Shown: piece by piece, positions 18,052 through 38,184 of the stretch | Numbering within the stretch: the first letter of the stretch is position 1 | Layout: the number at the start of each line of letters is the position of its first letter | NCBI GenBank assembly: GCA_030524635.1 | Contig: JAUNGG010000012.1 | Coordinates: forward strand, 1-64,000 | Source: Lachnospiraceae bacterium | GTDB taxonomy: Bacteria > Bacillota > Clostridia > Lachnospirales > Lachnospiraceae | Reading direction: 5' to 3' | DNA: 64,000 bases | Notes under the pieces: model-generated | Told to the model about the DNA's origin: nothing | Database searches by the model: none | The model's input: the letters and a program-made list of their open reading frames with translations, nothing else | Position numbers and translations under genes: made by a program

Positions 18052-18065
18052 GTAGTCTCAGCTAC
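18052..18065. promoter_or_regulatory. GTAG-N6-CTAC site upstream of the mocA-like gene
   Basis: GTAGTCTCAGCTAC, with both 4-base half-sites perfect. Centred about -43.5 from the predicted start of the mocA-like operon. Member of the motif family described in the findings. Confidence 0.55.
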
Positions 18066-18110
18066 ACACAGCGGAATTTCTGTTATATTTTCGTCAATCT
18101 TTTGGCAGCG

Positions 18111-18821
18111 CTACAAAAGCAGCCGCTCCTGATGCCGCTTCAATCGCTCCACATCCCGGATGCAGTAATATCCATTGATCTGCTCGATCAGGGACATCTC
18201 CTTTAATGATTTAATAGCACGCACAGCCGTCACCCGGTTGATCCCCAGCAGGTTGGACAGAAGCTGCTGGCTGACCTTTTCCTTGATTAAAATCTTTCCA
18301 TCATAAGGAACCCCATACCGGTCAGCAAAGATCAGCAGCAGATCACAGATCTTCCATTCTGCATTGTGAAAATTAGCATGGCGGATCTGGTCCATGGAGG
18401 ACATAAATTTTGTGGCAAGAGATTCCATCACATCCATGGAAACCTGCGGATCCCGGGAAATCGCTTCTAATAATGTTTCCTTATCAATGCAGATCAGTTC
18501 AGAAGGCAATGTGGTTTTAAAATTAACCGGCGACACGTAGTCAAACAGCACGTTTGCCTCCAGAAGCAGAGAATTGCATTCATTAAAATTATAAATGCGT
18601 TCCTCCCCTCCTATGGTATATTCGTATGCTGCAACACGCCCGCTTTTCACGATGTAGCAGTACTTCGGTATCGCTCCGGCACGAACCAGCTCATAGTTCT
18701 TGGGAAATATTTTTCTCTCCCCCAATTCCACCAGACGGCTGATTCCCCGCGGCAGATACAGCAGCCTGGAAACAAAATCTGCATGCGGAGCCTGGATCGT
18801 CTTCTTTATCTCCTGTTTCAT
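18111..18821 (-). CDS. Crp/Fnr family transcriptional regulator
   Basis: A 236-residue activator-type regulator. Residues about 30-125 form the cyclic-nucleotide-binding-like beta barrel (YCYIVKSGRVAAYEY with the conserved Gly), followed by the dimerisation helix. A winged HTH lies at about 183-223 (SQQLLSNLLGINRVTAVRAIKSLKEM). The recognition helix has NRVTAVR where Crp and Fnr have a conserved Glu (RE-T-x-x-R), so its DNA site should not be the classical TGTGA or TTGAT. There is no Fnr-like N-terminal Cys cluster. It is divergent from a TylF-like gene, and a GTAG-N6-CTAC site lies between them. I infer that it controls the molybdenum-hydroxylase regulon. Confidence 0.88.
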   Translation of the reverse strand: MKQEIKKTIQAPHADFVSRLLYLPRGISRLVELGERKIFPKNYELVRAGAIPKYCYIVKSGRVAAYEYTIGGEERIYNFNECNSLLLEANVLFDYVSPVNFKTTLPSELICIDKETLLEAISRDPQVSMDVMESLATKFMSSMDQIRHANFHNAEWKICDLLLIFADRYGVPYDGKILIKEKVSQQLLSNLLGINRVTAVRAIKSLKEMSLIEQINGYYCIRDVERLKRHQERLLL

Positions 18822-18842
18822 CTATGTTATCCTCCCCATAAC

Positions 18843-18862
18843 GATCAATTCCCGAATTGATC
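18843..18862. repeat. Inverted repeat in the leader of the Crp/Fnr gene
   Basis: GATCAATTC-CC-GAATTGATC, a perfect 9-bp repeat with a 2-base centre, between the TATAAT at 18873-18878 (minus strand) and the ATG at 18821. It could be a second operator or an mRNA hairpin near the ribosome binding site. Confidence 0.5.
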
Positions 18863-18872
18863 ATTATTTATC

Positions 18873-18878
18873 ATTATA
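18873..18878 (-). promoter_or_regulatory. -10 element of the Crp/Fnr gene
   Basis: TATAAT on the minus strand; start near 18866. The site at 18920-18933 is centred about 60 bp upstream, a class I activator distance. No good -35 is seen. Confidence 0.5.
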
Positions 18879-18919
18879 TACTCGTTATTCTTTTAACACA
18901 CGTAGTGCATGTCATAATT

Positions 18920-18933
18920 GTAGCATAAACTAC
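18920..18933. promoter_or_regulatory. GTAG-N6-CTAC site between the Crp/Fnr gene and the first TylF-like gene
   Basis: GTAGCATAAACTAC, perfect half-sites. It is centred near -60.5 for the Crp/Fnr gene and near -50.5 for the plus-strand gene (TATAAT at 18965-18970). Its position suggests autoregulation. Confidence 0.6.
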
Positions 18934-18964
18934 TTGAGAAGTATACAAAACTTTTTCAAGCTGA

Positions 18965-18970
18965 TATAAT
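18965..18970 (+). promoter_or_regulatory. -10 element of the first TylF-like gene
   Basis: TATAAT, about 35 bases before the predicted leader region ends at ATG 19012. The -35 position (TATACA at 18942) is poor. Confidence 0.5.
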
Positions 18971-19011
18971 GAAACATATACAAATAGATTATCAATGGAA
19001 GGAATTTTGCT

Positions 19012-19866
19012 ATGAACACCATCGTGATCCTCGGCGCCGGGCAATTCGGACGCACGGCTGCCAGCCTGTTAAATACAAATCATTTGAAGCTTCTTGCATT
19101 TGGCGATAATAATCCCAAACTCCAGGGAACCAGCATCCAGCAGGTTCCGGTTCTTTCTGTGGAGCAGGCGGTACAGCTGAAACCGGATTATCTCCTGACC
19201 GGCGTCATTGATGAGGTCCGCTCCGGGCAGCTCCGCAGCCAGGCCGTGGCAGCAGGATTTCAGGGAACATGGATTCTGCTGGGTGACCTCTACCGTCAGC
19301 TTGATGTCCGCAGTGCCACTTTGTTCCGGCTTGCCTCCCGGATCCTCCAGGGCAATGTACCAGGCGATATCGCAGAACTTGGGGTATATCAAGGAGATCT
19401 GGCCTGGAAGCTGAATGCCTGGTTTCCAGGGCGCAGGTTATACTTATTTGATACCTTTGAAGGGTTTGATGTGCGGGATATTTCAATCGAGCAGGACTTA
19501 AGCTGTTCGAAAGCCCAGGAGGGCGATTTTTCCGATACCAGTGAAGCCTTCGTGCTGAAGCGTCTGCCTCACCCGGAAACTGCTGTCATCCGAAAGGGCT
19601 ATTTCCCCGATACTGCCAAAGGACTGGAAGAAAATCGGTATGCCTTTGTCAGCCTGGATGCTGATCTCTATGCGCCGATCCTGGCCGGGCTTACCTATTT
19701 CTATCCCCGGCTAAGCCCGGGCGGCATGATCCTTCTACACGATTATAACAATGAGCGGTTTCGGGGAGCCAGGCAAGCCGTGGAGGATTTCGAATCCAAA
19801 TCCGGCTCTCTGTCCCTGGTTCCCCTCTGCGATCTTCATGGAAGCGCGGTGATCGTGCATCCATAG
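19012..19866 (+). CDS. TylF-like methyltransferase with N-terminal Rossmann domain (paralogue 1)
   Basis: Residues 1-100 look like a nucleotide- or sugar-binding Rossmann domain (VILGAGQFGRTAASLL, then GDNNPKLQG). Residues 115-284 match the TylF/macrocin O-methyltransferase family: DIAELGVYQGDLAWKLN (SAM loop), LYLFDTFEGFD, and the metal-binding residues D216/D218 (SLDADLY) and H243-D244 (LLHDYNN). The start has AAGGAATTTTGCT before ATG. It is one of few plus-strand genes here and is divergent from the Crp/Fnr gene across a shared operator. A paralogue lies at 30236-31123. The substrate is unknown; a role with molybdenum enzymes is suggested only by shared regulation. Confidence 0.82.
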   Translation: MNTIVILGAGQFGRTAASLLNTNHLKLLAFGDNNPKLQGTSIQQVPVLSVEQAVQLKPDYLLTGVIDEVRSGQLRSQAVAAGFQGTWILLGDLYRQLDVRSATLFRLASRILQGNVPGDIAELGVYQGDLAWKLNAWFPGRRLYLFDTFEGFDVRDISIEQDLSCSKAQEGDFSDTSEAFVLKRLPHPETAVIRKGYFPDTAKGLEENRYAFVSLDADLYAPILAGLTYFYPRLSPGGMILLHDYNNERFRGARQAVEDFESKSGSLSLVPLCDLHGSAVIVHP

Positions 19867-19907
19867 TTTGCTCTGCATTTTTATATCACAATCATTTTTT
19901 AAGATGC

Positions 19908-21116
19908 CTATTCCACAAGCTCCACTTCCAGCATCTCTCCTGCCTGGTGAGCCGGCTCAAACAACCCTGTCACATACTGGGCATCCGAGCTAAGGAGCGC
20001 TGCTGTGCTGCTCTGGCGCATGGGGATCGGATAAATTTCGGCTGTGCCGTCCTCACGTTCCACCACATTCAGGCGGTGAAGGATCTGTACCGGACCGCCT
20101 TTGTCCATGGGAGCTGCCAGCACTCCTGTTATCTTCCTCCTCTCCTTGCGGACGCTTCCCAGCCATCGGCTGACCAGTGCTCCCAGACACCAGTCTGTCA
20201 CAAAATATGCAGCAAGGGTAGGGCCTGGTACATTGATAACCGGCTTATCCTGAATCAGGGCCAGTGATACTGGCCTTCCCGGCACAGCGGCCACCTGATG
20301 GCAGATCACACGGCCCTGTTCCTTCAGCAGATGGACATTAAAATCCTCGCCGCCCTTGGAGGAGCCGCCGTTAATAATCACCAGATCCGCCTGTTTCAGC
20401 GCCTGATCCAGGGCTTCCTTCAGCTTCTCCTTTTCATCCCGCACGATGGGGAATACGATCGTTTCCGCACCCATAGCTTCCAGCTGTGCGCTGACCATGG
20501 CGCTGTTGGTGTCAATATTATCGCCCCGCTTCACTCTTTCACCTGGGGGAATCAATTCAGAGCCAGTGGGGATCAAGGCAACAACCGGCTTTTTCACCAC
20601 CGGAACAGCTGGGTAATTTCCCACTGCCAAAGCCGCCAGATCGGTGGGACGGATCCAGCTTCCTTGCTTTAAAAGCAGATCTCCTTCCCGGATCATACTG
20701 CCTGCCGGCCGGGTCATGGTTCCCGGTTTTACTGGAAATGGAAGAGGAAGCTCCAGCTTTACAGAGCCATCCTCCATCAGCTTCACCTTCTCGATCATAA
20801 TAATAGCATCATAGCAGTCCGGAAAGTCATCTCCGGTATCAGCCCTTTCATAATCCACTCCTGGCTTCCAGGAAGAGGTATCCGGGTCACCATCTTCAAA
20901 TGCCTTGGACTTCACTGCGATCCCGTCCATGGCAGAGACCCGGTACATGGGAAGTGTAACCCTGGAATACAGATCCTGTGCCAGAACGCGGCCTGCCGCA
21001 TCCTTTAAGGATACCTCCTCGATCAAAGGGGACGGTGTCCATGCCTGGAAAAATTGTTCCAGAGCCTCCTGCTTTGTTATCATTTTTTTCTCCTGCTTAC
21101 GCTCAAGTGCAGCCAT
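19908..21116 (-). CDS. moeA: MoeA-like molybdopterin molybdotransferase
   Basis: Inserts molybdate into adenylated molybdopterin, the last common step of molybdenum cofactor synthesis. The conserved MoeA regions are clear: RVSAMDGIAV near residue 63, IPTGSELIPPGE, the GDNIDTNS segment, IINGGSSKGGEDF (the family usually has SGGVSVG) and the VPGPTLAAYFV segment (family P-G-N/F-P). 402 residues is normal. A second start at 21083 (CAGGAG upstream) is equally possible. It follows the importer genes by 22 bases, so import and insertion of the metal are probably co-transcribed. Several residues differ from housekeeping MoeA, so it may be specialised for the hydroxylase cofactor. Confidence 0.88.
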   Translation of the reverse strand: MAALERKQEKKMITKQEALEQFFQAWTPSPLIEEVSLKDAAGRVLAQDLYSRVTLPMYRVSAMDGIAVKSKAFEDGDPDTSSWKPGVDYERADTGDDFPDCYDAIIMIEKVKLMEDGSVKLELPLPFPVKPGTMTRPAGSMIREGDLLLKQGSWIRPTDLAALAVGNYPAVPVVKKPVVALIPTGSELIPPGERVKRGDNIDTNSAMVSAQLEAMGAETIVFPIVRDEKEKLKEALDQALKQADLVIINGGSSKGGEDFNVHLLKEQGRVICHQVAAVPGRPVSLALIQDKPVINVPGPTLAAYFVTDWCLGALVSRWLGSVRKERRKITGVLAAPMDKGGPVQILHRLNVVEREDGTAEIYPIPMRQSSTAALLSSDAQYVTGLFEPAHQAGEMLEVELVE

Positions 21117-21137
21117 ATATTCTGCTCCTTCTCCTGT

Positions 21138-22286
21138 TTATTTTCCTTCCAGAATCTCCTGGGCCGCTGCCTCATCGATATCTGTGTGATACCATTCCTT
21201 GAAAAAGTCAATCACCACCTGCTCCATATCCACATCTTCAAATAATTCCGGATATAAGATCGTACCCAGCCACGGAGTCATCATCGCATTTTCTCCGCTC
21301 CGAACGCCCCACAGATAGATGCCCTGCGGCGTATTGTAAACTCTGCCTTCTTTTACTGCCTTTACCTGAGCCAGTGCCGGATCGGCAAGGATCTCATCCA
21401 TTCCCTGCTGATTCAGGGTAATGATCACATCCGGATCCCAGGCCAGGATCTGCTCTGCATCGATGGAAAGACCGCTGTTGCGCCCGCCTGCCGGACGGTC
21501 ACCAGAGCCTGCCGGATTATAATCCGCTGCCACATTGATGCCACCTGCCTCAGAAAGAATGGAGGTAAAGATATCAGTCCGATTCACAGTGGAATAGGCG
21601 CCGCCATTTACACTTAACCGCAGCACCTTCACCCGCTCCTCATCACTTAAATCCCTGGTTCTGCTCTGGCAGTCATCGATGCTTGCCTGCCAGTAATCAC
21701 AGAATTCTTCTGCACGTTTTACTTCTTCCTGTCCCAGAATACTGCCGATCAGACGATAGCTTTCCATCATTTCAGCGGAATCACTTACCTGACTGATATT
21801 TACATAGATGATTCCAGCCTGCTCCATCTGTTCAATCTGTTCTTCACTGTAGGCGCTTGCCGGGCCGTATGCCACCTGCACGCCGGCTGCGATCAGATCC
21901 TCCACACTGCCGGAATCATAATCATTGGGGTTGGTCTCCTTGTAATCCCCAAAGATTTCCTTAAAATAATCGGAGATCTGAGCAGTAGAGGCTGCTGCGA
22001 TCTTTCCTGGTGACAGCATTTCCGTAACCTGGGCAAATGCACCGATGGTTGGGGCTACCTTCGTCACCTGATAGGGAATGGTTACCTCCTTGCCGTCAGA
22101 ATCCTTTACGATTCTGGTTTCCAAAACTGCTTCAGCCTCAGCTGCTCCTTCTGTCTCATTGGTTTCCCCTTCATCAGCCGCCGCAGCTGCCGCTGTGGTA
22201 CTGGTACTGCCCGACTGTCCGCAGGCTGTCATCATACAGCCTGCCGCCATCATCCATACTGCGATTACTGCTGCACTTCTCTTCAT
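21138..22286 (-). CDS. ABC transporter substrate-binding lipoprotein (FecB/BtuF/MolA type)
   Basis: Extracytoplasmic binding protein of a FecCD-type importer. The signal peptide ends in the lipobox MTAC, then a Ser/Thr/Ala/Glu-rich linker leads to a two-lobed helical-backbone binding domain (VTKVAPTIGAFAQVTEML; AWDPDVIITLNQQG; VYNTPQGIYLWGVRSGE). 382 residues. The ATG at 22286 has AGGAGG seven bases upstream. The family takes up ferric siderophores, cobalamin, haem or, as in MolA of Haemophilus influenzae, molybdate and tungstate. Location between moeA and three molybdenum hydroxylases favours molybdate or tungstate, which remains inference. Confidence 0.85.
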   Translation of the reverse strand: MKRSAAVIAVWMMAAGCMMTACGQSGSTSTTAAAAAADEGETNETEGAAEAEAVLETRIVKDSDGKEVTIPYQVTKVAPTIGAFAQVTEMLSPGKIAAASTAQISDYFKEIFGDYKETNPNDYDSGSVEDLIAAGVQVAYGPASAYSEEQIEQMEQAGIIYVNISQVSDSAEMMESYRLIGSILGQEEVKRAEEFCDYWQASIDDCQSRTRDLSDEERVKVLRLSVNGGAYSTVNRTDIFTSILSEAGGINVAADYNPAGSGDRPAGGRNSGLSIDAEQILAWDPDVIITLNQQGMDEILADPALAQVKAVKEGRVYNTPQGIYLWGVRSGENAMMTPWLGTILYPELFEDVDMEQVVIDFFKEWYHTDIDEAAAQEILEGK

Positions 22287-23103
22287 ATTCTATTTCCTCC
22301 TGTTGATCATCACTGCCAGCTTCCAGAACCGGCTGACATATTTTTATCCTTTTATTCTGGATCGGAACCTGGGCGATCCATACCGGGACCTCATAGGCCT
22401 TCAGCATATGTTCCTGGGTCACCACCGCCTCTGCCGGGCCGGTAAGGATCTGTTTGTCCCGCATCATTAACACCACATTGGCATCACATTGAAAGACCTG
22501 ATCCGGATCATGGGTAGTCATGATCACCCCAAGCCCCAGATCTGCCAGCTTTCGGATATTTTTCAATACTTTGGCCTGATTCCCGAAATCCAGATTTGAG
22601 GTAGGCTCATCCATCATCAGGAATCTGGGCTGCTGGGCCAGGGCTCTTGCAATCAGCACCATCTGTTTCTCGCCTCCGGAGATCTCGGTAAAGATCTGAT
22701 CTGCAAGGTGAGCGATGCCCAGACTGTCAAGTGCCTGCCAGGCGGCATCCATATCCTCTTCCTTGGGCGATGCAAAAAAATCGAGATACGCGATCCGCCC
22801 CATCAGCACCACATCCAGCACAGAAAAGGCGAAGGGCGAATTATGTGCCTGGGGTACATAGCTGATCCATCTGGCCTGCTCCTTCCGGGACATGGTATTC
22901 ATCTCCCTCCCGTCCAGAAAAATTCGTCCGCCCTGTCTGGGAAGATTGCCTAAAATCGTATTAAATAGTGTAGTTTTTCCCACTCCGTTGGGGCCCAGGA
23001 TACAGAGAATCTCTCCCGGCTCCACAGAAACAGAAAAATCCTGCACCACATTTTTTGTTCCGTAGCCGCACTGCAGATGTTCGATAACAAGACTCATGTC
23101 CAC
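22174..23103 (-). CDS. ABC transporter ATP-binding protein (FecE/BtuD/MolC type)
   Basis: ATPase of the FecCD-type importer. Walker A is GPNGVGKT near residue 38, the signature is ISGGEKQMVLIARAL, and Walker B is FLMMDEPTSNLD. The usual family end is near residue 260; here about 38 additional residues run, out of frame, across the first 113 bases of the substrate-binding protein gene before a stop at 22174. The tail has low-complexity Ser/Gly/Asp character and looks like readthrough rather than a domain. The start overlaps the permease stop by 10 bases; a second ATG 6 bases on is also possible. Confidence 0.9.
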   Translation of the reverse strand: MDMSLVIEHLQCGYGTKNVVQDFSVSVEPGEILCILGPNGVGKTTLFNTILGNLPRQGGRIFLDGREMNTMSRKEQARWISYVPQAHNSPFAFSVLDVVLMGRIAYLDFFASPKEEDMDAAWQALDSLGIAHLADQIFTEISGGEKQMVLIARALAQQPRFLMMDEPTSNLDFGNQAKVLKNIRKLADLGLGVIMTTHDPDQVFQCDANVVLMMRDKQILTGPAEAVVTQEHMLKAYEVPVWIAQVPIQNKRIKICQPVLEAGSDDQQEEIEYEEKCSSNRSMDDGGRLYDDSLRTVGQYQYHSGSCGG

Positions 23104-24149
23104 TCCTTCCTTCCGCGAAAAAGCAGATAGATAAATAAGGGCGCTCCAAGCAGTGAGGTAAGGATCCCGATGGGCAGTTCTCCTGGAATGATCACTCTGG
23201 ACACATTGTCCACCACCAGCAGGAACAGTCCTCCCATCAGCATAGATGCAGGAAGCAGCCCCCGGTAATTAGGCCCTACTAAAAAACGGGTAATATGAGG
23301 CATGATCAGTCCCACCCATCCGATGGTGCCGCAGATGCAGACGCTGGATGCAGTCAGAAGCGTGGAGCAGAAGATGATGATCCCTCTGGTCCGCCTGACA
23401 TTGACGCCCAGGGCCTGAGCTTCCTGCTCCCCAAAGGACATGGCATTGATATTCCAGCGCATCATAAGAAGGGGTGCGGTGCCAGCCAGGGCAACTGCCA
23501 GCATAATGAATACATTCTTGTAATTCCCGCTTTTAGTAAAGCTGCCCATCAGCCAGAAGGTGATGGCTGGAAGCTGCTCATCCGTATCCGCCACATACTT
23601 CATCAACGAGGTGAAGGAGGAGAAAATGGACGAGATCACGGACCCTGCCAGCACCATGATCAGAATCCTGGTATTTCCTTTTCCGATGGTTCTTGCAAGC
23701 ACAACCACGAAAAAGACGGCTCCTGTGCCGAATAAAAAGGCCAGCACATGGACCCAGCCGGAGCTTAACCCCAGAAGCAGTCCCAGTGCCGCGCCAACGC
23801 TGGCTCCGCTGGAAACCCCCAGAATATCCGGTGATACCATAGGATTCTGAAATAATCCCTGATAAGCAGCACCAGATATGGCTAAGGCCGCTCCCACCAG
23901 AATTGCCAGAAGGATCCTGGGGATCCGGATCACAAACAGCACCGTGGCTTCTGCCCGGTCCCCATCCTGGAGCGTTCCGGTAACGGCTCTTCTAAGCAGA
24001 ACCAGGATCCGGTCCAGTGGAATGGCATACCTTCCCACTGTAATGGACAAAATACTGGCTGCCAGCAGAAGAACTGCCAGCAAAAGCAGGATCATCCGCT
24101 CCTTCTGCAGTTCCTTTCTCACATGCATATATCGTTCGTTACTGCTCAT
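23094..24149 (-). CDS. FecCD family ABC transporter permease
   Basis: Membrane subunit with about ten helices for import of a metal chelate or oxyanion. Typical FecCD segments: RIPRILLAILVGAALAISGAAYQGLFQNPM, GASVGAALG, and GTIGWVGLIMPHITRFLVGPNYR. I place the start at 24149: that ATG overlaps the upstream stop codon (ATGAGCAGTAA) and gives 351 residues; a longer frame begins at 24173. Downstream genes encode the ATPase, binding protein and MoeA, making one operon that begins with the small LRR gene. Confidence 0.9.
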   Translation of the reverse strand: MSSNERYMHVRKELQKERMILLLLAVLLLAASILSITVGRYAIPLDRILVLLRRAVTGTLQDGDRAEATVLFVIRIPRILLAILVGAALAISGAAYQGLFQNPMVSPDILGVSSGASVGAALGLLLGLSSGWVHVLAFLFGTGAVFFVVVLARTIGKGNTRILIMVLAGSVISSIFSSFTSLMKYVADTDEQLPAITFWLMGSFTKSGNYKNVFIMLAVALAGTAPLLMMRWNINAMSFGEQEAQALGVNVRRTRGIIIFCSTLLTASSVCICGTIGWVGLIMPHITRFLVGPNYRGLLPASMLMGGLFLLVVDNVSRVIIPGELPIGILTSLLGAPLFIYLLFRGRKEWT

Positions 24150-24597
24150 ATACCACTTCCACAATATGCTCATTGGAATGTGACTGCTGCCAGCCGTCCT
24201 GGCGTTTCATCTCCTGGATGGTCTGATCCATAAAGGAGCCTTCCTTGCAGCGGATCTGGGGATAATATTCCTTGCTCTCCACCACATGGGTAAAACCGCA
24301 GTTGCTCTCGATCTTCTTCACCAGCGCTCCTTCTCCCAGGCGCTCCACCGACTCCGGCACCCGGACATACTCCAGGTTCTGACAGCCATTTACGGTATAC
24401 TTTCCGATGGTGACAACTCCATCCGGCAGATACAGGCCGGTCAGCTTCTTATTCCGGTAAAATGCCTGGTCTCCGATCCCAGTCACGCCATCCGGTACCC
24501 GGACCTCCCCCTCACATGCCTTTCCATTCTTCACCACTCCATTTTCAATCACAAGACCTGACTGTGTGGTTCCGGTAAATAATGTGTTTTCTTCCAT
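24139..24597 (-). CDS. Small BspA-like leucine-rich repeat protein
   Basis: A protein of about 152 residues with two or three LRR_5 (BspA/TpLRR) repeats: VRVPDGVTGIGDQAFYRNKKLTGLYLPDGVVTIG style units near residues 33-90. No signal peptide or membrane helix is seen, so it should be cytoplasmic, which is unusual for this repeat type. Start: ATG at 24597 preceded by AAGGAGG; an upstream in-frame ATG at 24618 lacks a binding site. It is the first gene of the importer-moeA operon and overlaps the permease by 11 bases. Function unknown; it may be a protein-binding adaptor. Confidence 0.75.
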   Translation of the reverse strand: MEENTLFTGTTQSGLVIENGVVKNGKACEGEVRVPDGVTGIGDQAFYRNKKLTGLYLPDGVVTIGKYTVNGCQNLEYVRVPESVERLGEGALVKKIESNCGFTHVVESKEYYPQIRCKEGSFMDQTIQEMKRQDGWQQSHSNEHIVEVVYEQ

Positions 24598-24641
24598 GGT
24601 AATCTGATCCTCCTTCATAAAGCCTTTTGCCCTGCAATAAC

Positions 24642-24682: not shown

Positions 24683-24701
24683 ACTCAACATGTATGGGTG
24701 T

Positions 24702-24707: not shown

Positions 24708-24730
24708 ATCAATTTCCAATTAGACGACAA

Positions 24731-24744
24731 GTAGTGTAAACTAC
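24731..24744. promoter_or_regulatory. GTAG-N6-CTAC site upstream of the importer operon
   Basis: GTAGTGTAAACTAC, perfect half-sites. It overlaps the last codon and stop of the XDH2 FAD gene (24741) and is centred at -42.5 of the importer promoter, the class II activator position. Confidence 0.65.
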
Positions 24745-27161
24745 AGACCTGCCCGCAGAATCGCGGTGCATAGCAGATCCTTCATCATGTAAAGCTTGTA
24801 CTCGTTCTTTCCCATGGGAGTTGCATCCTTCACAGCCAGCTCTGCAGCCTCCTGCGCAAGCTCCTGGGTCACAGCCTTTCCCGCCAGCAGCGCTTCCACC
24901 TGCTCCATCCGATACGGAACAGGAGCCACACCGCCGAATACGATGCGTGCTTCTCGAATCACACCATCCTCCACCTCAAAACGGGATGCCAGGGAAACGA
25001 TGGCAAAATCAATGGCATCGCGGACACGCTTTTTATCATAATGGGTGATTCCCTTCTGCTTGGGAACCTGGATCTCCTTTACCAGCTCTCCCGGTGCCAG
25101 AATATGCTGTACTGTCAGCTCCTTTGTAAACAGGTCAGCTGCCGGGATCACACGCTCTGTGGTCACGATCTGAGCATCTGCCATCACCAGAACCGGGCTG
25201 ATATCCGATGGGCTGACGGCGTAGCAGCCGCAGTTCATGCAGCGTCCTGCCTCCTTCAATGCCGTTTCCATATCAAAGGTCTCTGCATCCTCCTTCGTCA
25301 GAGACCGCACGCCCAGCGGAACCTCCTTCAGCTTATTCGCTGCTGCGGCATCAACGCCAACCGGATCAAAGTGGAGGAATGGATCCGGTTGCTCCTTTGT
25401 CACTGTCTTAACCTGCTCCTGCAGCTTCCCTTCTGCACAGTCAGCTGCCGCACCGGTTCCCAGATCCCGGTTCATTCCGGCTGCCGCTGTGCGGCCTGCT
25501 GCAATTGCCCGGATAGCCACATTGGGCCCGGTCACAGCATCACCGCCTGCATACACGCCGTGCTTCTTCGTCTGATAGGACTCTGCGTCCGCTTCGATCA
25601 GACCGCGTTCTGAACGGATCTGGGAAGCAAAGCTTTCTCCCAGGAAATCCAGATCCACCCGCTGTCCCGTCGCCAGGATAATGGTATCCGCCTGGATGAC
25701 CTGGCGGTCCGCCTCATCGTAAACAGGAGCAAAGTGGTGTGCTTCATCGTAAACAGACAGGCAGCGCTTCGCCTCCAGTCCGGCGGCTTTGCCCGTTTCA
25801 TCGGTTACTACCTTTCCAAGCCCCCAGCCGTTATAAAGAACCACTCCCTCTTCCTTCGCTCTGGCAACCTCTTCTGCGGATGCAGGCATTTCCTGCTCCC
25901 GCTCTAAGCAGACCAGCTTCACGCTCTTTGCACCCAGGCGGACAGCCGTCAGCGCCACGTCCATGGCTACATTTCCGCCGCCGCACACTAAAACCTCATT
26001 GCCGATGGCTCTCTTCAGGTAGGTGTTCACCTCTACCAGGAAGTTTAATCCAAACTCAGTCAGATTCTCTCCCTCCAGGCCCAGCACCGGCTGCTTCCAT
26101 GCACCGGTTCCAAAATAAATGGTATCATAAGACTTCTCGATCTCTTCCACGGTAATATCCCGTCCCACCTGGGTGCCAAGGCGGAATTCTACGCCCATCT
26201 TCCGAAGGGCATCCACATATGCGTCCACGATGGTCTTGGGCAGACGGTAATGGGGGATCCCGTACTGGAGAACGCCGCCGGCCTTTTCCATCTGGTCAAA
26301 TATCGTTACGCTGTGGCCTGCCTTCCGAAGATAAAAGGCAGCAGACAGACCTCCTGGACCTGCACCGATAATGGCAGCCTTCTTTCCGGTCTCCTGCTCT
26401 GGAGAAGGAGCCGCATAATACTGATCGGCATGGGCCAGAATATAATCTCCCAGAGAGCGCTCTACACCATGTACATTAACACTGTCGCCGTATACAGTCT
26501 GGTTGCAGTCGCTCTGACAGGTGTGAGGACAGATGCGGGAGGTCATCATAGGCATTGGATTGTATTTCATAATGGTTCTGGCTGCTCCATCCCAGTCGCC
26601 CTTCCGAAGCTGTGCCATGTATCCGGCAATGTCGGTTCCTGCCGGGCAGGCCTTGGCACAGGCGGAGCCGCCGCAGCTCATTCCGCCGAATACAGAATGG
26701 TAGCGGTTTTCACCATTAATAGCATAGCAGGTCTTGCCGCCCTTCCGCTTGCAGTCTAAGGTATCGCCAACAGAATCGGGATACCGGTAATACCAGCAGC
26801 GCACATCCTGGCAGATATTTCCGCCGATGGTTCCAATGTTCCGGATCAGCGGAGATGCTACGGAGTGAGCCGCTTCGGCAAGCGCCTGACAGTTCTCCTT
26901 CACGGCTGCATCTGCGGCCACCTTCGTCAGCTTGCTGTTGGCGCCGATGGACACACACCCTTCTGCAGCCTGGATCTGGCTGCTGCCTGGGATCTGCTTT
27001 AAGTTGATCACCGTTTCCGGATAGGTCTTTAACAGATTATCTTTATATACACCCAAAAGGTCCGAGCCCCCGGCCATAGCCTGGGCTGTTCCCCTGGATT
27101 CCTTTATCATTCTTCCAGCTTCCTCAAAGCTGGCTGCATTTACATGTTCAAAATGTTTCAT
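24741..27161 (-). CDS. XDH2 FAD subunit with a nested GltD-like NAD(P)H oxidoreductase
   Basis: An 806-residue fusion. Residues 1-160 are the N-terminal part of a molybdenum-hydroxylase FAD subunit (AMAGGSDLL; IRNIGTIGGNICQ; RYHSVFGG). Residues about 163-645 are a complete GltD/DPD-type module: a Cys-rich [4Fe-4S] region (CGGSACAKACPAGTD; CPHTCQSDC), the FAD loop IIGAGPGGLSAA, the NAD(P) loop VCGGGNVAMD and AGGDAVTGPN. From about 648 the FAD-subunit sequence resumes exactly where it broke (CYAVSPSDISPVLVMADA) and runs through the flavoprotein C-terminal domain. Electrons could thus flow between the Mo enzyme and NAD(P)H or ferredoxin-like centres within one chain (inference). Good AGGAGG before ATG. 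Last gene of the XDH2 operon. Confidence 0.88.
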   Translation of the reverse strand: MKHFEHVNAASFEEAGRMIKESRGTAQAMAGGSDLLGVYKDNLLKTYPETVINLKQIPGSSQIQAAEGCVSIGANSKLTKVAADAAVKENCQALAEAAHSVASPLIRNIGTIGGNICQDVRCWYYRYPDSVGDTLDCKRKGGKTCYAINGENRYHSVFGGMSCGGSACAKACPAGTDIAGYMAQLRKGDWDGAARTIMKYNPMPMMTSRICPHTCQSDCNQTVYGDSVNVHGVERSLGDYILAHADQYYAAPSPEQETGKKAAIIGAGPGGLSAAFYLRKAGHSVTIFDQMEKAGGVLQYGIPHYRLPKTIVDAYVDALRKMGVEFRLGTQVGRDITVEEIEKSYDTIYFGTGAWKQPVLGLEGENLTEFGLNFLVEVNTYLKRAIGNEVLVCGGGNVAMDVALTAVRLGAKSVKLVCLEREQEMPASAEEVARAKEEGVVLYNGWGLGKVVTDETGKAAGLEAKRCLSVYDEAHHFAPVYDEADRQVIQADTIILATGQRVDLDFLGESFASQIRSERGLIEADAESYQTKKHGVYAGGDAVTGPNVAIRAIAAGRTAAAGMNRDLGTGAAADCAEGKLQEQVKTVTKEQPDPFLHFDPVGVDAAAANKLKEVPLGVRSLTKEDAETFDMETALKEAGRCMNCGCYAVSPSDISPVLVMADAQIVTTERVIPAADLFTKELTVQHILAPGELVKEIQVPKQKGITHYDKKRVRDAIDFAIVSLASRFEVEDGVIREARIVFGGVAPVPYRMEQVEALLAGKAVTQELAQEAAELAVKDATPMGKNEYKLYMMKDLLCTAILRAGL

Positions 27162-27186
27162 CGTTTTCCCCTCCTGACACGGACTT

Positions 27187-29493: not shown

Positions 29494-29495
29494 GC

Positions 29496-30089: not shown

Positions 30090-30161
30090 ATGATGCAGGT
30101 GTAATCCGTGATCCTTATGTAACTTACACTACTTGTTGTATCAATGGGGCTGATTCATAAT
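30090..30161. promoter_or_regulatory. Divergent promoter pair for XDH2 and the second TylF-like gene
   Basis: Minus strand: CATCAT at 30095-30090 (4 of 6 to TATAAT). Plus strand: CATAAT at 30156-30161 (5 of 6). Both place the site at 30119-30132 at -42.5. Neither has a good -35. Confidence 0.45.
30119..30132. promoter_or_regulatory. GTAG-N6-CTAC-type site between XDH2 and the second TylF-like gene
   Basis: On the plus strand GTAACTTACACTAC; on the minus strand GTAGTGTAAGTTAC, one half-site base off. The flanking ACAAGTAGTGTAA is identical to that of the site at 24731. Confidence 0.6.
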
Positions 30162-30235: not shown

Positions 30236-31123
30236 ATGAAGACCGTTGTAATCCTGGAAACGGAACATTTATCCATCCCTGTTTCCGATCTGCTGAATCC
30301 AAAGGAAATGAAACTGGTCGGCATTGGAAATTCCAACTCGGACACCTGGAATGTATTTGCCAATGAAGAAACCGGAGAATTGAAAGAAAATATGGAAGGA
30401 ATACCGGTAATGCCCATCGATCTGGCAGTATCTCTCCAGCCAGATGTGATCGTGATCGCAGCAACGGACGCCGAGAAAAGCCACGCACTCCAGTATATGG
30501 CGATCCGGGCCGGCTTCTTAAACGACATTTTATTTATCAACGACCTTTATACCCAGTTCACCGTTAAAGGCTCTGTTATCCGACGTCTGACCAGACGGCT
30601 GGGAACCTTGGGTGTAGCTGGAAATGTGGCGGAGCTGGGCTGCTACCAGGGCGATCTGGCCTGGCAGTTTAATATCCTGATGCCTGACCGGAAACTGTAC
30701 CTGTTCGATACCTTTGAAGGGTTTGATGAGAGGGATATTGCAAAGGAACAAGAGCTGAACTGCTCCCCGGCAAAAATCGGACAATTCTCCCAAGCCAAAG
30801 AAGAACGGCTGATGGAACGGATGCCGGTGCCGGAGCAGGTAATCGTAAAAAAGGGCTGGTTCCCGGAATCAGCTTTTGACATGGAGGACGAGAAATTTGC
30901 GCTGGTTCACATCGATGCCTGTCTGTATCAGCCTACCTACTGCGGAATCCAGTTCTTCTTCCCGCGGATGAGCCAGGGCGGCGTGATCCTGCTCTCCGGC
31001 TATGAGGATACCAGCTATACCGGAGTCCGTCGGGCTGTGCAGGACCTGGAGGAGAAGTACGGGGCATTTCTGCTGCTGCCGTTAGGAGATCTGAAGGGGA
31101 CTGTGATGATCGTTCATCCGTGA
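30236..31123 (+). CDS. TylF-like protein (paralogue 2), probable loss of metal ligands
   Basis: A 295-residue paralogue of 19012-19866, with matching order: N-terminal Rossmann-like part, then NVAELGCYQGDLAWQFN, LYLFDTFEGFDERDIAKEQELNCS and a shared C-terminal end (GTVMIVHP versus GSAVIVHP). Differences matter: the N-terminal Gly loop is lost (VVILETEHLS instead of VILGAGQFG), and the metal-site residues H-D become S254-G255 while D-A-D becomes D-A-C. It may bind SAM without the usual catalysis, or have a new role. AGGAGG precedes the ATG. It is divergent from XDH2 across a shared operator. Confidence 0.8.
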   Translation: MKTVVILETEHLSIPVSDLLNPKEMKLVGIGNSNSDTWNVFANEETGELKENMEGIPVMPIDLAVSLQPDVIVIAATDAEKSHALQYMAIRAGFLNDILFINDLYTQFTVKGSVIRRLTRRLGTLGVAGNVAELGCYQGDLAWQFNILMPDRKLYLFDTFEGFDERDIAKEQELNCSPAKIGQFSQAKEERLMERMPVPEQVIVKKGWFPESAFDMEDEKFALVHIDACLYQPTYCGIQFFFPRMSQGGVILLSGYEDTSYTGVRRAVQDLEEKYGAFLLLPLGDLKGTVMIVHP

Positions 31124-33349: not shown

Positions 33350-33373
33350 CATTCTGCTATATTCTTCTCAATT

Positions 33374-33796: not shown

Positions 33797-34273
33797 TTAA
33801 TCGCCAACCTGGAACGGCGGCTGCCCCAGGATCTTACAGGCAGCGTGAAAGGCCATCTTCTCATAAACTAAAGGAAACAAAAGACTGATTACATACATCG
33901 GAACGAGCTGACTGCCGATTGCAGGCCATAAATAAGGATGAGTAAATCCCATGCCGCAGCCGGTCAGCATCACGGTAACGACCGTATTAAAAAACAGGGT
34001 ACGAACTGCATTGGATACGACAAAGAAACCAAACCCTTCCGGTTTAAGCTTCAGGGACAGGGCAGCTTTGTCACCGATCATTTTTACCGGCAGGATAATA
34101 CTGACGATAGTAAAGCTTAAGAAAGCAGCTCCCCAGTTTAAGATCCAGCTTTCAACATGGAAGCCAAGCTGGGCGTAATTCCAGATCACGCCTACCGTCG
34201 CCATACTGAAAGACATAAACAGGGCAACGTATATCGAGATGATCAAGCCGAAATGATTCTTAAAATAATGCAT
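33797..34273 (-). CDS. Small four-helix membrane protein (DUF2798-like)
   Basis: 158 residues with about four hydrophobic segments: IISIYVALFMSFSMATVGVI, FLSFTIVSIILPV, LFFNTVVTVMLTG, and LVPMYVISLLFPLVY. The paired F-(M/L)-S-x-x-M and P-V features resemble duplicated DUF2798 units. It lies 23 bases after the XDH3 Mo subunit and is probably the last gene of that operon. A substrate carrier or membrane anchor for the hydroxylase is conceivable, but nothing shows it. Confidence 0.7.
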   Translation of the reverse strand: MHYFKNHFGLIISIYVALFMSFSMATVGVIWNYAQLGFHVESWILNWGAAFLSFTIVSIILPVKMIGDKAALSLKLKPEGFGFFVVSNAVRTLFFNTVVTVMLTGCGMGFTHPYLWPAIGSQLVPMYVISLLFPLVYEKMAFHAACKILGQPPFQVGD

Positions 34274-34296
34274 ACTTCTCCTCCGATCTTCACATT

Positions 34297-36660
34297 CTAT
34301 TTGGAGTTACGATCGTCTTTCAGTCCCCGCATTGCTCTCCAGATATGCTCCGGATCCAATGGCAGTTCCGTAAAGTAAATGCCGGTTGCCATATTCACTG
34401 CATTGGCGATTGCCGGTGCCACTGGTGCTGCAGAGCCTTCTCCGGCTTCCTTTGCTCCTAACGGGCCTTCCTCGTCCGGTGTAAAGTCGTAGAAGGTGCG
34501 CATCTTCGGCATATCAAGAGCCGTTGGCAGACGATAGTCACGGAAGTTTGGATTCAGGATCTTTCCTTCCTTGGTTACGGTATGCTCGTATACGGCATAG
34601 CCCAGGCCCATTCCGATGGAGCCTTCCAGCTGGCCCTCTACTGCACGGCGGTTTAGTGCACGGCCGCAGTCATGTGCAAATACGAATTCATCAATATCCA
34701 GAACACCGGTCTCCTCATCTACGGTCAGGTGAGCCGCTCCAGTAGAGAAGCTGTATGCAGGAGCATAGTTGGTGGTGTTGACACCATTGTACTGAGAGTT
34801 ATCGGTTCTGTGGTAGTAGGAGCCGATTCCCACTAACTCATCGCCGCCCTTAACGGTCATGTACTTGAACATGGCATCACCGATGGACATCTGAAGCTCA
34901 GCTTTCTCCTTGCTGATTACCTTTCCATCCAGGCATTCCAGGGTCTGAGGCATCACGCCCCACATAGGAGCGATCACTTCGAACAGCTGACGCTTTGCAT
35001 CAACGGCTGCACGGCGTGCTGCATTACCAGCTAAGAAGGTAACACGGCTTCCGTAAGAACCGGAATCCCAAGGGGTTAAGAAGGTATCGGACATGAAGGT
35101 CTTTACCATATCCATTGGCAGACCTAATTCCTCTGCCACGATTGCGGTCATAACCGTATCAGAACCCTGGCCGATATCATGGGAACCGATGTACAGGGTT
35201 GCCATACCGCGCTTATTCATACGAAGGGTCACGCAGGCAGAGCTCTGATTCGGAGCCTCCAGAACGGCAAAACCAGTACCGGATACGAAACCGGTTCCGG
35301 CAAAACCAATGCCCTCGCCCTTCTTCATCTTGCCCTTCTTCTCATACCAGCCGATCTCCTTGGCTGCGGTATCCAGAGTTTCCTTGTAAGCACAGCTGGT
35401 GATGGCCAGGCCGGCAGGTGCTACATAGCCAGGGTCAGCAGCGCTGATCTTACGGAATTCAACTGGGTCGATGCCCATCTGATCTGCTGCATACTGCATG
35501 TTCAGATCATGTGCGAAATGCACCTGGCATGCGGTATATCCACGCATGGCTCCGGCTACCGGGTTATTGGTATAGACACGGCGTGCCAGGAAGTCTACGG
35601 AATTCATCTTATATGGGAAGTTTGCCCACAGAGTCGCCTGTGCACAGGAAGCCACGCCCGAACCGCCGTAAGGGCCGCCGTCCAGAACATGGTAACACTT
35701 CTTTGCCAGAAGCTTTCCGTCTGCACCGAATGCAGTGTCGATCTTCATATAGATGGGATGGCGATGACGGGTGGACTGGAATACTTCCTCACGGGTCAGG
35801 ATCATACGAACCGGCCGTCCGGTCAGCTCTGCCATCTTTGCCGCACACAGACCGAAGGAATAGGAATCCAGCTTGCCGCCGAAGCCGCCGCCTACTAATG
35901 GCTTGATCACCCGGACATGATTCTCCGGAACGCCCAGACACCGTGCATACCAGAACTGGTCTACATATGCCATCTGGGTAGACATCCAGATGGTGTAAGT
36001 ACCATTGCGGTAAGTTGCCACTGCGCCGTGAGGCTCCATAGCTGCATGAACCATACGGTGGGTGCTGTATTCTCTGTGCTGCACGTAAGCAGCATTGTTA
36101 AATTCTTCATCAATATCGGTTCCGGCCTTCATCACAGACTGCATACCGATGTTGTTTAAGCCCTTGCCCTCCCAGTTTACTTCCGGAGCGTCATCCTCCA
36201 TGGCCTCGAATGGATCGAATACCCCTGGGAGCACTTCATATTCTACCTTGATTAAATCGGCTGCGATCTGAGCAGTCTCCTCATCGACGGCCGCTACTGC
36301 TGCCACATCATCGCCTACCTGGCGGACGATCTCGGAGCAGAGTACTTCCTTATCTGCAAACTCGGCTGCAAACTCGCCGTTTCCTACTTTAGCCTTCCAC
36401 TCAAAGTCCTTTGCAGTCAGGATACACTTCACACCTGGAACCTTCTCTGCTTCGCTGGTGTCGATGGAGATGATTCTGGCTCTGGCATAAGGGCTGCGAA
36501 CCATGCGTCCGGTCAGCATATCCGGGAACATAATATCGCCTACATACTGTCCGTGGCCCGTTACCTTGTCCTCTGCATCAATGCGGACATAGTTGTTTTC
36601 ACCGGTCAGACGGTAAAATTCCGGTTTCTTGAAATAATGCTTATCACAATCTTTATGCAT
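34297..36660 (-). CDS. XDH3 molybdopterin-binding catalytic subunit
   Basis: A 787-residue catalytic subunit of a third molybdenum hydroxylase. Motifs: GGGFGGKLDSYSF, AGAMRGYTACQVHFAHD (the R-G arginine loop), IGSHDIGQGSDTVM, and GAKEAGEGSAAPVAPAI with the catalytic Glu. The ATG at 36660 has GGAGGAGG upstream and follows the [2Fe-2S] gene by 3 bases. The R-G-Y-T-A loop differs from R-G-F-G-A of XDH1, so the substrate probably differs. Nicotinate, purines and aldehydes are family substrates, and none can be chosen here. Confidence 0.9.
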   Translation of the reverse strand: MHKDCDKHYFKKPEFYRLTGENNYVRIDAEDKVTGHGQYVGDIMFPDMLTGRMVRSPYARARIISIDTSEAEKVPGVKCILTAKDFEWKAKVGNGEFAAEFADKEVLCSEIVRQVGDDVAAVAAVDEETAQIAADLIKVEYEVLPGVFDPFEAMEDDAPEVNWEGKGLNNIGMQSVMKAGTDIDEEFNNAAYVQHREYSTHRMVHAAMEPHGAVATYRNGTYTIWMSTQMAYVDQFWYARCLGVPENHVRVIKPLVGGGFGGKLDSYSFGLCAAKMAELTGRPVRMILTREEVFQSTRHRHPIYMKIDTAFGADGKLLAKKCYHVLDGGPYGGSGVASCAQATLWANFPYKMNSVDFLARRVYTNNPVAGAMRGYTACQVHFAHDLNMQYAADQMGIDPVEFRKISAADPGYVAPAGLAITSCAYKETLDTAAKEIGWYEKKGKMKKGEGIGFAGTGFVSGTGFAVLEAPNQSSACVTLRMNKRGMATLYIGSHDIGQGSDTVMTAIVAEELGLPMDMVKTFMSDTFLTPWDSGSYGSRVTFLAGNAARRAAVDAKRQLFEVIAPMWGVMPQTLECLDGKVISKEKAELQMSIGDAMFKYMTVKGGDELVGIGSYYHRTDNSQYNGVNTTNYAPAYSFSTGAAHLTVDEETGVLDIDEFVFAHDCGRALNRRAVEGQLEGSIGMGLGYAVYEHTVTKEGKILNPNFRDYRLPTALDMPKMRTFYDFTPDEEGPLGAKEAGEGSAAPVAPAIANAVNMATGIYFTELPLDPEHIWRAMRGLKDDRNSK

Positions 36661-36663
36661 GCT

Positions 36664-37149
36664 CTATTCCTCCTCCCAGTTCATCTCAGCTGCTGCTGCC
36701 TGGATCGCCTCCACGATCTTGGCATAACCGGTACAGCGGCAAAGGTTTCCTTCGATAGCTTCTCTGATCTCCAGCTCGGTTGGATGGGGATTTACATCCA
36801 GAAGTGCCTTCGCAGACATAATCATACCTGGAGTGCAGTAACCGCACTGCATGGCCCACTTGTCAATAAACTGCCTCTGGATCGGATGGAGCTGTCCATT
36901 CTTTGCGATTCCCTCAACGGTCACGATATCATGGCCGTCACACTCCACTGCCAAAGTACAGCAGGAGTTTACCGGCTTTCCATCTAACAGAACGGTACAG
37001 GCGCCGCACTCGCCTTCCTCACAGCCCTTCTTGGTTCCGGTCAGGAATAACTGGTCGCGCAGGAAATCCAGCAGGGTCAGGTTGTCTTTTACGATGGCTT
37101 CCACCGGATCGCCGTTGATAATCAAACTGATACTGTGTTTATGCTTCAT
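36664..37149 (-). CDS. XDH3 [2Fe-2S] subunit
   Basis: 161 residues from ATG at 37149 (AGGAGG nine bases upstream; the longer frame runs into the FAD gene). Cluster ligands: CEEGECGAC (near residues 43-51) with a following Cys, then CGYCTPGM and CRCTGY. Middle gene of the FAD/[2Fe-2S]/Mo operon, an order different from XDH1. Confidence 0.93.
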   Translation of the reverse strand: MKHKHSISLIINGDPVEAIVKDNLTLLDFLRDQLFLTGTKKGCEEGECGACTVLLDGKPVNSCCTLAVECDGHDIVTVEGIAKNGQLHPIQRQFIDKWAMQCGYCTPGMIMSAKALLDVNPHPTELEIREAIEGNLCRCTGYAKIVEAIQAAAAEMNWEEE

Positions 37150-37162
37150 GTTCTCTCGCCTC

Positions 37163-38029
37163 CTATAAACTTTCCATAGCCTGTTTGATGGCACGCTTGG
37201 TAAATACCCGAATCATATCCTTCCGGTACTCGGCTGATGCACGGATATCGGAGATCGGATTACAGGAATTCATTGCTTCCTCAGAGGCTTTGATGATCAC
37301 ATCGTCCGTCAGCTCCTTGCCGATCAGGGCCTCCTCAGCCTTCGGAGCACGAATCGGGGTAGTTGCTACTGCGCCAAGTGCAATCTTTGCATCGGTGCAG
37401 ATACCATTTTCCACCTTGATTTTAACCGCTACACCGATGATGGCTAAGTCCATTGCTTTTCTTACGGCATGCTTGATATATGCGGCTGCCTCATTCTCTG
37501 CCAGCGGCGGGATCACGATGCCGGTCACGATCTCACCTGGCTCCAGGGAAGTCTTCTTTACGCCTAAGAAAAAGTCCTCAATTGCGATCACACGATCCTT
37601 ATTTGGGCCCTGTACCAGGATCTTAGCGCCCTGAGCCAGCAGGTTCGGACCGCTGTCGCAGGATGGGGATGCGTTGCAGATATTGCCTGCCATCGTTCCC
37701 TTGGCACGGATCTGGGTGGATGCAATCACCTTTGCTGCATGTGCTGTAGCCGGGTTTTTCTCCTTCACTAACGGAGAGGTCTCGATGGTGCGGAGCGTAG
37801 TCAGAGCACCGATCTTCAAGCCTTCCTTTTCGTCATATTCCAGATAATCAAGTCCTGGGATCTTTTTGATGTCAATGAGATACTCGGCGGTAAATGCCTT
37901 ATCTCTCATTGGCGGGATTAAGTCGGTGGCACCTGCCATCACCTTTGCGCTGCTGCCTAATTCCAGAAGCAGGTTGCATGCTTCTCCTATGGTTGTAGGA
38001 GCCAGATACTCAAACTGAGGTAATACCAT
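37163..38029 (-). CDS. XDH3 FAD-binding subunit
   Basis: 288-residue FAD subunit and first gene of the XDH3 operon. The FAD loops are AGATDLIP (near residues 32-39) and IRAKGTMAGNICNASP (near 107-122), followed by the flavoprotein C-terminal domain. AAGGAGG precedes the ATG. Two candidate GTAG-N6-CTAC sites lie 108-155 bases upstream. Confidence 0.92.
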   Translation of the reverse strand: MVLPQFEYLAPTTIGEACNLLLELGSSAKVMAGATDLIPPMRDKAFTAEYLIDIKKIPGLDYLEYDEKEGLKIGALTTLRTIETSPLVKEKNPATAHAAKVIASTQIRAKGTMAGNICNASPSCDSGPNLLAQGAKILVQGPNKDRVIAIEDFFLGVKKTSLEPGEIVTGIVIPPLAENEAAAYIKHAVRKAMDLAIIGVAVKIKVENGICTDAKIALGAVATTPIRAPKAEEALIGKELTDDVIIKASEEAMNSCNPISDIRASAEYRKDMIRVFTKRAIKQAMESL

Positions 38030-38084
38030 TTTGTTTCCTCCTTGCCTTTTTTGGTTTCAGTTCACGAAACTGCGTTACCTGATG

Positions 38085-38090
38085 ATTGTA
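38085..38090 (-). promoter_or_regulatory. Candidate -10 of the XDH3 operon
   Basis: TACAAT on the minus strand (5 of 6); start near 38078. The two upstream sites would then be centred near -65.5 and -99.5. A TTGACA 12 bases upstream of it is too close to be its -35. Confidence 0.4.
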
Positions 38091-38136
38091 TTTTAGGAGG
38101 ATTGTCAAAAATTTGCCAGGAGTGCAGGGCACAAGT

Positions 38137-38150
38137 GTAGTGTGGGCTAC
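38137..38150. promoter_or_regulatory. GTAG-N6-CTAC site 1 upstream of XDH3
   Basis: GTAGTGTGGGCTAC, perfect half-sites. It is followed by ACAGGTGT, and a copy of CTACAGGTGT recurs at 38163-38172. Confidence 0.55.
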
Positions 38151-38170
38151 AGGTGTTTCTTGCTACAGGT

Positions 38171-38184
38171 GTAGTTTACATTAC
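38171..38184. promoter_or_regulatory. GTAG-N6-CTAC-type site 2 upstream of XDH3
   Basis: GTAGTTTACATTAC; reversed it is GTAATGTAAACTAC, differing from the site at 24731 by one base. Centre-to-centre distance to site 1 is 34 bp, about three helical turns. Confidence 0.55.

Follow-up and report, generated by a model that had tools for sequence, protein, structure and literature searches.

A stretch of 64,000 nucleotides from a Lachnospiraceae bacterium (GenBank assembly GCA_030524635.1, contig JAUNGG010000012.1, positions 1 to 64,000; the window in what follows) carries six copies of a 14-bp inverted repeat, GTAG-N6-CTAC, among the genes of a molybdenum (Mo) hydroxylase cluster, together with a gene for a Crp/Fnr-family protein (18111-18821, minus strand, 236 amino acids). 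On the sequence evidence we consider it likely that all six sites serve as operators in a single activator-type regulon under this protein. An earlier note on the same DNA had put forward one site common to the Mo-hydroxylase gene set, with the Crp/Fnr protein as candidate regulator, and this proposal is supported by a scan of the source genome, by recurrence of the sites in other genomes, by their spacing to promoter-like hexamers and by a change in the recognition helix. The regulon appears to be real, of the Crp/Fnr type and ordinary in kind, and as such it is well supported by comparison and geometry.

The repeat was present at all six positions at which it had been reported, with perfect copies at 18052, 18920, 24731 and 38137 and copies one base off at 30119 and 38171, exactly as claimed. 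Operator 1 (GTAGTCTCAGCTAC, 18052-18065) lies before the mocA-like operon, operator 2 (GTAGCATAAACTAC, 18920-18933) between the crp gene (minus strand) and tylF1 (plus strand), operator 3 (GTAGTGTAAACTAC, 24731-24744) before the importer run, operator 4 (GTAACTTACACTAC, 30119-30132) between the hydroxylase genes XDH2 (minus strand) and tylF2 (plus strand), and operator 5 (GTAGTGTGGGCTAC, 38137-38150) before the hydroxylase genes XDH3, where operator 6 (GTAGTTTACATTAC, 38171-38184) forms a second site 34 bp away. The assertion that all six lie in control regions held overall and needs amending for operator 3, which overlaps the stop codon of the XDH2 flavin adenine dinucleotide (FAD) subunit gene; as a control element this site belongs to the Mo-importer operon, its centre being 119.5 bp before the start of that operon. 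A scoring matrix was built from the six sites themselves, which, as its training set, score 17.8-21.8 (operator 1, 17.8; operator 6, 20.3). The four perfect copies compare with a mean of 0.25 in shuffled windows, and four or more occurred in none of 100 shuffles. Allowing one mismatch gave 13 copies, not significantly more than the expected 9.2 (9 of 100 shuffles), and when all 256 half-sites and 15 spacers were tried blind to the motif on the intergenic DNA of the window, 115 of 200 resamples contained some 4-mer palindrome in four or more copies; GTAG-N6-CTAC was not singled out. Discovery by eye within the window is weak because of this last result and, since both tests were non-significant, evidence from beyond the window was needed.

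Such evidence comes from the source genome (3.81 Mb), which holds 32 perfect sites, all of which were inspected: 4 in the window and 28 outside it. Among the latter, 26 fall inside open reading frames (ORFs) of at least 100 amino acids, and the remaining two, C71:1807 and C80:380, score 11.9 and 6.0. The top score among the 28 was 12.5, compared with 17.8-21.8 for the sites of the window, and with the six-site matrix no match of at least 13 was found in a further 400 kb of the source genome. The earlier note had named a genome-wide scan returning the motif at chance frequency as grounds for giving up the idea. Chance frequency was not seen, since none of the outside perfect sites reached 13 and most were coding, and the scan thus settles the question of chance in favour of the sites.

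The sites are found again ahead of homologous genes, both in other genera and in metagenome-assembled genomes (MAGs) of a spirochaete family, all in genomes selected by way of their Crp homologue. With the 300 bp upstream of each gene taken as the region tested, the six-site matrix reached at least 13 before 26 of 45 cluster-gene homologues from other genomes, compared with 0 of 398 control regions. As some sites are common to divergent genes and the genomes are related by descent, the 26 do not count independent events. The controls comprised 285 regions of the source genome and 113 from Enterocloster and G175 stretches; four of the 113 later proved to be cluster genes of G409 and G407, which makes the control stricter, and the top Enterocloster control score, 9.5, fits the tylF2 region of G409. 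A further 31 control regions (L057, L058, L059 and L061), which gave two scores of at least 13, were excluded as their stretches had been chosen by pattern match. Sites stand before the mocA homologues of loci L017 (score 16.0) and L018 (13.2) and at the XDH2/tylF2 junctions of L017 (14.8), L066 (13.6) and, more weakly, L082 (10.9), while the importer site of G175 lies 394 bp upstream, beyond the span tested. Perfect sites precede two more XDH3 operons, in G410 (L020:2220) and in G412 (L035:1501, 98 bp before the FAD gene); both were found through the pattern itself and are not blind tests. The 25 sites outside the window give the consensus TGTARY-NTAN-RYTACA, whose information content is inflated by their having been chosen as matches. 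Conservation points the same way at two of the junctions: the intergenic region between crp and tylF1 aligns poorly between the window and five Enterocloster genomes, yet the site is its best-conserved 16-mer in all five comparisons, while the XDH2/tylF2 site is within the top 9% of 16-mers in three of three.

The position of the sites relative to predicted promoters is that of a Crp activator, for which centres at -41.5 to -43.5 are the class II position and -60.5 the class I position. Starting from sites chosen for their motif and gene neighbourhood, we looked downstream and scored -10 hexamers with approximate weights, start points being derived from the hexamer by convention. For 19 of 40 site/gene rows the predicted -10 puts the centre of the site within -41.5 to -43.5, compared with a mean of 2.6 per 3-bp window, and a second peak falls at -60.5 (6 of 40). 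These 40 rows were selected after the peak had already been seen in a 50-row set, by dropping repeated genomes of Enterocloster and the XDH3 site of G175, which is weak, and by adding the G410 XDH3 row, two G175 xdhC rows and the G413 xdhC row; in the fuller 50 rows that peak is also present (16 at k=30), and another, at -16.5, is produced by the motif itself. In the window, operator 1 would be centred at -43.5 of the mocA promoter (TATAAT, 18022-18027, minus strand), operator 3 at -42.5 of the importer promoter (TTGTCG-N17-TATAAT, 24730-24702, minus strand) and operator 4 at -42.5 of the tylF2 promoter (CATAAT, 30156-30161). Operator 2 is predicted to lie at -60.5 of the crp promoter (TATAAT, 18873-18878, minus strand) and at -50.5 of the tylF1 promoter (TATACA-N17-TATAAT, 18942-18970), and operator 5 at -60.5 of the XDH3 promoter (TAAAAT, 38090-38095, minus strand). 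In a separate promoter scan, the promoters of tylF1 and of the importer ranked within the top three; overall, it found 22 sites where 22.1 were expected.

The Crp/Fnr-family protein belongs to its superfamily by both halves, an N-terminal cyclic-nucleotide-binding-type barrel (PF00027, cNMP_binding, 39 bits against a cut-off of 27.5) and a C-terminal Crp-type helix-turn-helix (PF13545, HTH_Crp_2, 40.7 bits against 27), and the geometry of the candidate operator appears to fit a two-fold symmetric site with half-sites one turn apart. In a structural model, the nearest solved folds were Crp-family proteins, CprK included (TM-scores about 0.4-0.5); the model is middling (predicted local distance difference test 79, predicted TM-score 0.51) and informative at fold level only. 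The earlier note had remarked on an atypical recognition helix, and this was borne out: the helix reads NRVTAVR, with Val in place of Glu-181 of E. coli CRP. When CRP binds TGTGA, G2 is read by Arg-180 and G4 by Arg-185, and Glu-181 reads the C opposite G4 (PMC11253593). Among 19 homologues, Arg occupies position 180 in all and position 185 in 17, the other 2 having Lys there, and position 181 is Val, Ile, Ala or, once, Met, and Glu in none; the sites keep G2 and T3, and A4 replaces G4. E. coli CRP with Val at 181 reportedly accepts A:T at that position (Ebright and co-workers, 1984). The fifth base of the half-site is not cleanly explained by the helix. The match of helix and operator offers a natural test of the Crp recognition code. 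Homologues with NRISITR and NRVTINR (L023 and L024) adjoin GTAA-N6-TTAC sites and hold GTAG-type sites too (L023:5965, and before XDH3 in L024), and those of G1231a (NRITITR) and G1247 (NRITVNR) adjoin mixed half-sites. In an alignment to the CRP sequence, the protein of the window lacks the cAMP-phosphate pair Arg-82/Ser-83, and cAMP is for that reason an unlikely ligand. The N-terminal Cys cluster that holds [4Fe-4S] in FNR is likewise absent, with no Cys before residue 55, and the invariance of C159 and C220 in ten of ten sequences leaves a redox input open.

What the computation shows is the sites and their recurrence, their spacing to promoter-like hexamers, the altered helix and the co-occurrence with XDH3; for binding, activation, the effector and the substrate of the enzyme, we infer the following scheme. 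A homodimer of the 18111-18821 protein would bind TGTARY-NTAN-RYTACA, the retained Arg-180 reading G2, with Val for Glu at 181 and A4 in place of G4, and would recruit RNA polymerase from class II sites, centred near -41.5 to -43.5, or from class I sites, at -60.5. Its predicted targets are mocA with the genes that follow it, the importer-moeA run, tylF1, tylF2/XDH2, XDH3 and crp itself, which is possibly autoregulated; the site at 30119 is assigned to XDH2 less surely than to tylF2. The signal may be a phenolic substrate that the protein senses directly, as CprK and HbaR do.

A number of observations, besides the blind and one-mismatch tests within the window and the shared sites and ancestry of the promoter rows, weigh against this scheme. 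For the XDH2 genes of the window, neither Crp position gave a good -10. Upstream regions of XDH3 reached 13 in only two of nine cases (8.6 in three of three Enterocloster genomes, 6.3 in G175), and the site before XDH3 was not conserved in any of four comparisons. The crp genes of L020, L021, L022, L083 and L085 have no upstream site of at least 13. No high-scoring site outside ORFs was found at nine FecCD loci (1.5 kb on each side) or in four 20-kb stretches around four of them; a site before the Enterocloster importer genes was accordingly rejected over the nine FecCD loci, with the limit that in the other five the operon start may exceed the stretch. The sole high score near these loci, 13.6 (L121:9049), falls inside a YhcH/YiaL gene. 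A looser form of the palindrome occurs at 47 places in ten other genomes, 27 of which were inspected; 18 such loci were fetched with their flanks, and 12 lay in ORFs and 6 outside (the G408 crp promoter, G412 XDH3, one scoring 8.6, and L036, L038 and L046). The last three, scoring 16.4, 17.2 and 19.9, are intergenic and have no cluster gene nearby, and may be either further targets or chance, and inside ORFs matches reached 13.8-17.7 (L030-L033). Given these ORF matches and non-cluster intergenic sites, the matrix alone is not specific and is no proof of function in those genomes. As to their surroundings, the L046 palindrome (G414:C189) adjoins an AAA-domain gene and that of L038 (G411:C182) lies upstream of an HTH_3 gene; L036 is G413:C119.

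The palindrome might be functionless, a product of chance or of selection by eye, as the blind resampling, the near-chance one-mismatch counts and the strong matches away from cluster genes in other genomes might suggest. This is extremely improbable in our judgement, as it leaves aside the recurrence outside the training window against none of 398 controls, the low scores and mostly coding positions of the other perfect sites in the source genome, and the peak of promoter spacing at the class II position. The Crp/Fnr protein might instead act mainly as a repressor at the sites, released by substrate: the crp promoters of five Enterocloster genomes have a TATAAT directly before the site, which would then cover that start point. 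However, the same five promoters also have a second -10, of the extended kind, which puts the site at -43.5, a spacing of -42.5 recurs in unrelated promoters, and the protein may repress one crp promoter and still be an activator, so that we regard repression as the main mode as unlikely. It is more doubtful still that the sites serve another regulator, such as the protein at 14633-15970 in which a ModE-type DNA-binding domain is joined to a MocA-like nucleotidyltransferase, with the cluster tied to molybdate rather than to substrate. The presence of this fusion in the window and of Mo supply genes in the site-bearing set speaks for such a link, and the protein may be a second, molybdate-linked regulator. 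Nevertheless, the spacing of the sites is that of Crp activators, the sites recur beside crp itself, ModE sites look different, and within six of six Crp-bearing loci (L020-L023, L060, L084; the loci only) the fusion protein has no match at E<=1e-8.

The activator reading is of special interest for its probable link to urolithin A formation, which runs through XDH3 (34297-38029, minus strand; FAD, 2Fe-2S and Mo subunits in that order). The best match of its Mo subunit in the Protein Data Bank is the alpha subunit of 4-hydroxybenzoyl-CoA reductase (4-HBCR), at 34.0% identity, and XDH3 is the top match of the 4-HBCR model in seven of seven genomes. It is nonetheless below the cut-off of that family (TIGR03194; 628.9 compared with 994.55 bits), which none of the seven exceeds. 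In Enterocloster asparagiformis DSM 15981 (L017), XDH3 is 93% identical to its only match at E<=1e-150. PMC12771579 describes Ucdh of E. bolteae as urolithin C 9-dehydroxylase, a three-subunit enzyme of the xanthine-oxidase family that is closest to 4-HBCR (32.7%) and has homologues above 90% in E. asparagiformis; strain DSM 15981 is among those tested and listed on the urolithin pathway in PMC9999415. Because the likeness to 4-HBCR, the E. asparagiformis match and the published description agree, XDH3 is probably an orthologue of Ucdh and a urolithin C 9-dehydroxylase, an assignment made through the E. asparagiformis homologue. The signal may therefore be a phenolic substrate. According to PMC12771579, urolithin C induces Ucdh, a result for which a second study is cited there, and along with it a methyltransferase, a putative transporter and transcriptional regulators. 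The TylF-like proteins may be that methyltransferase, and the regulon could explain the co-induction of cluster I and the response of the enzyme to urolithin C; the weakness of the Enterocloster site before XDH3 speaks against the latter. The same paper (PMC12771579) also reports another cluster (cluster II), with genes for Mo transport and cofactor; in Enterocloster we neither located nor accounted for it at the nine FecCD loci and four 20-kb stretches.

Enzymes of this type and the regulator co-occur. The XDH3 Mo subunit is at least 89% identical to one gene in each of nine other genomes (27 searched, most of them chosen for their Crp), and within the genus of G407 (17 genomes) the six genomes with the Crp homologue are the same six that have an XDH3 match (five at 93-94%, one at 54%), while the other 11 have neither. 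Elsewhere the Crp homologue is uncommon at the thresholds used: exact peptide patterns gave nine loci in the named collection and, with the source genome counted, the numbers are 3 of 397 genomes for the family, 1 of 11 for the genus, 1 of 391 for the class and 1 of 392 for the order; with a different Crp as query, it was found in 4 of 195 genomes of the family of G414. The source genome lies outside the genus group that holds E. asparagiformis. ORFs were called as longest frames, and XDH3 in L020 was missed until tblastn was used. Two contigs of spirochaete-family MAGs, L060 (G414:C288, 6.6 kb) and L084 (G1231:C419, 12.5 kb), carry Mo subunits 89% identical to that of the window, with Crp proteins only about 50% identical; these copies could reflect transfer of the enzyme genes or misbinned contigs. 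In G175 there is a second, diverged Crp gene (L056:1576-2271; 39% identity), which is preceded by two sites; the C-terminus of its longest frame is short, and the search alignment shows internal stops.

A bolder reading, which we offer tentatively and hold at somewhat under even odds, is that a Crp/Fnr subfamily with its own DNA code (hydrophobic residue 181, TGTAR half-sites) would be the substrate-sensing switch of a mobile phenol-dehydroxylation module, made up of Crp, a TylF-like methyltransferase, a Ucdh-type enzyme and Mo cofactor supply, that has spread among clostridial genera and reached spirochaetes, and that this switch governs the formation of urolithin A in the human gut. The analysis supplies a candidate regulator, operators and an expected signal for the urolithin C-induced dehydroxylase, and Enterocloster is culturable. 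Ucdh-like enzymes 89-94% identical to the copy in the window occur across several genera, whereas the RefSeq Select search reported in PMC12771579 placed all Ucdh matches outside Enterocloster below 60%.

Relatives of such a regulator are known. CprK of Desulfitobacterium is a Crp/Fnr activator of reductive dehalogenase genes; it shares the fold and, under our proposal, the role of an activator that senses the phenolic substrate of the reductive enzyme it controls, but its operator, of the TTAAT type, differs from the TGTAR type here, and structural alignments give 14-17% identity. HbaR of Rhodopseudomonas palustris is the Crp/Fnr regulator of 4-HBCR, the closest solved relative of XDH3, although it belongs to another phylum and another gene set. 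E. coli CRP has the same domains, class I and II positions, N6 between five-base half-sites, and Arg at 180 and mostly at 185, but here Glu-181 is replaced, the half-site is TGTAR rather than TGTGA, and the cAMP-phosphate Arg/Ser is not conserved. The ucdh system of E. bolteae likewise combines a three-subunit enzyme nearest to 4-HBCR with co-induced methyltransferase and regulator genes; the sections of PMC12771579 consulted name no regulator of ucdh or operator, and the window's genome is outside the genus group of E. asparagiformis. The operator string, in six spellings, was not found in the literature searched, and a title-level search found no description of a Crp/Fnr regulator of Mo hydroxylases, urolithin or Enterocloster, though another Ucdh paper may name one. 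We thus found no account of this regulon in the literature searched, its Crp/Fnr-type kind being itself known.

The remaining genes of the cluster are as follows. The MocA-like nucleotidyltransferase (17287-18003, minus strand; NTP_transf_3, with NTPtran_DVU1551 as best NCBIfam match, below its cut-off) is the first gene of a same-strand run that reaches XDH1. Upstream of crp, a 13-pair hairpin (18838-18867; -12.2 kcal/mol, z -2.31) lies at the predicted start point before the ribosome site. This palindrome was set aside as a candidate operator: as RNA it forms a hairpin before the crp ribosome site, and no counterpart was seen in the Enterocloster crp/tylF1 alignment. The tylF1 gene (19012-19866, plus strand) encodes a NeuD-like N-terminal stretch, below cut-off, followed by a TylF-type methyltransferase, and tylF2 (30236-31123, plus strand) a second TylF-like methyltransferase. 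The importer run, on the minus strand, begins with a 159-amino-acid protein with a BspA-type leucine-rich-repeat match (24139-24618), which has a 73% homologue in L016, continues with the three genes of a FecCD-type ATP-binding-cassette importer (21138-24173; permease, ATPase and binding protein), whose cargo we assume to be molybdate or tungstate, and ends with a MoeA-like protein (19908-21116).

XDH2 (24741-29996, minus strand) consists of a 2Fe-2S subunit, a Mo subunit and an FAD subunit joined with a GltD-like reductase. The FAD subunit (24741-27161) is interrupted by this GltD-like pyridine nucleotide oxidoreductase with its Fe-S domain, perhaps a built-in electron-transfer module. Beside XDH3 lies a gene for a 158-amino-acid protein with no Pfam match (33797-34273, minus strand), which stays beside XDH3 in several genomes (L084:1368-1916; L035:1529-1993) and in L084 has its own upstream site (score 17.0); it is likely a partner of XDH3. 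Between tylF2 and XDH3, the segment 31185-33126 holds a DpnII/MboI-type restriction nuclease gene and a gene with a weak AAA-domain match.

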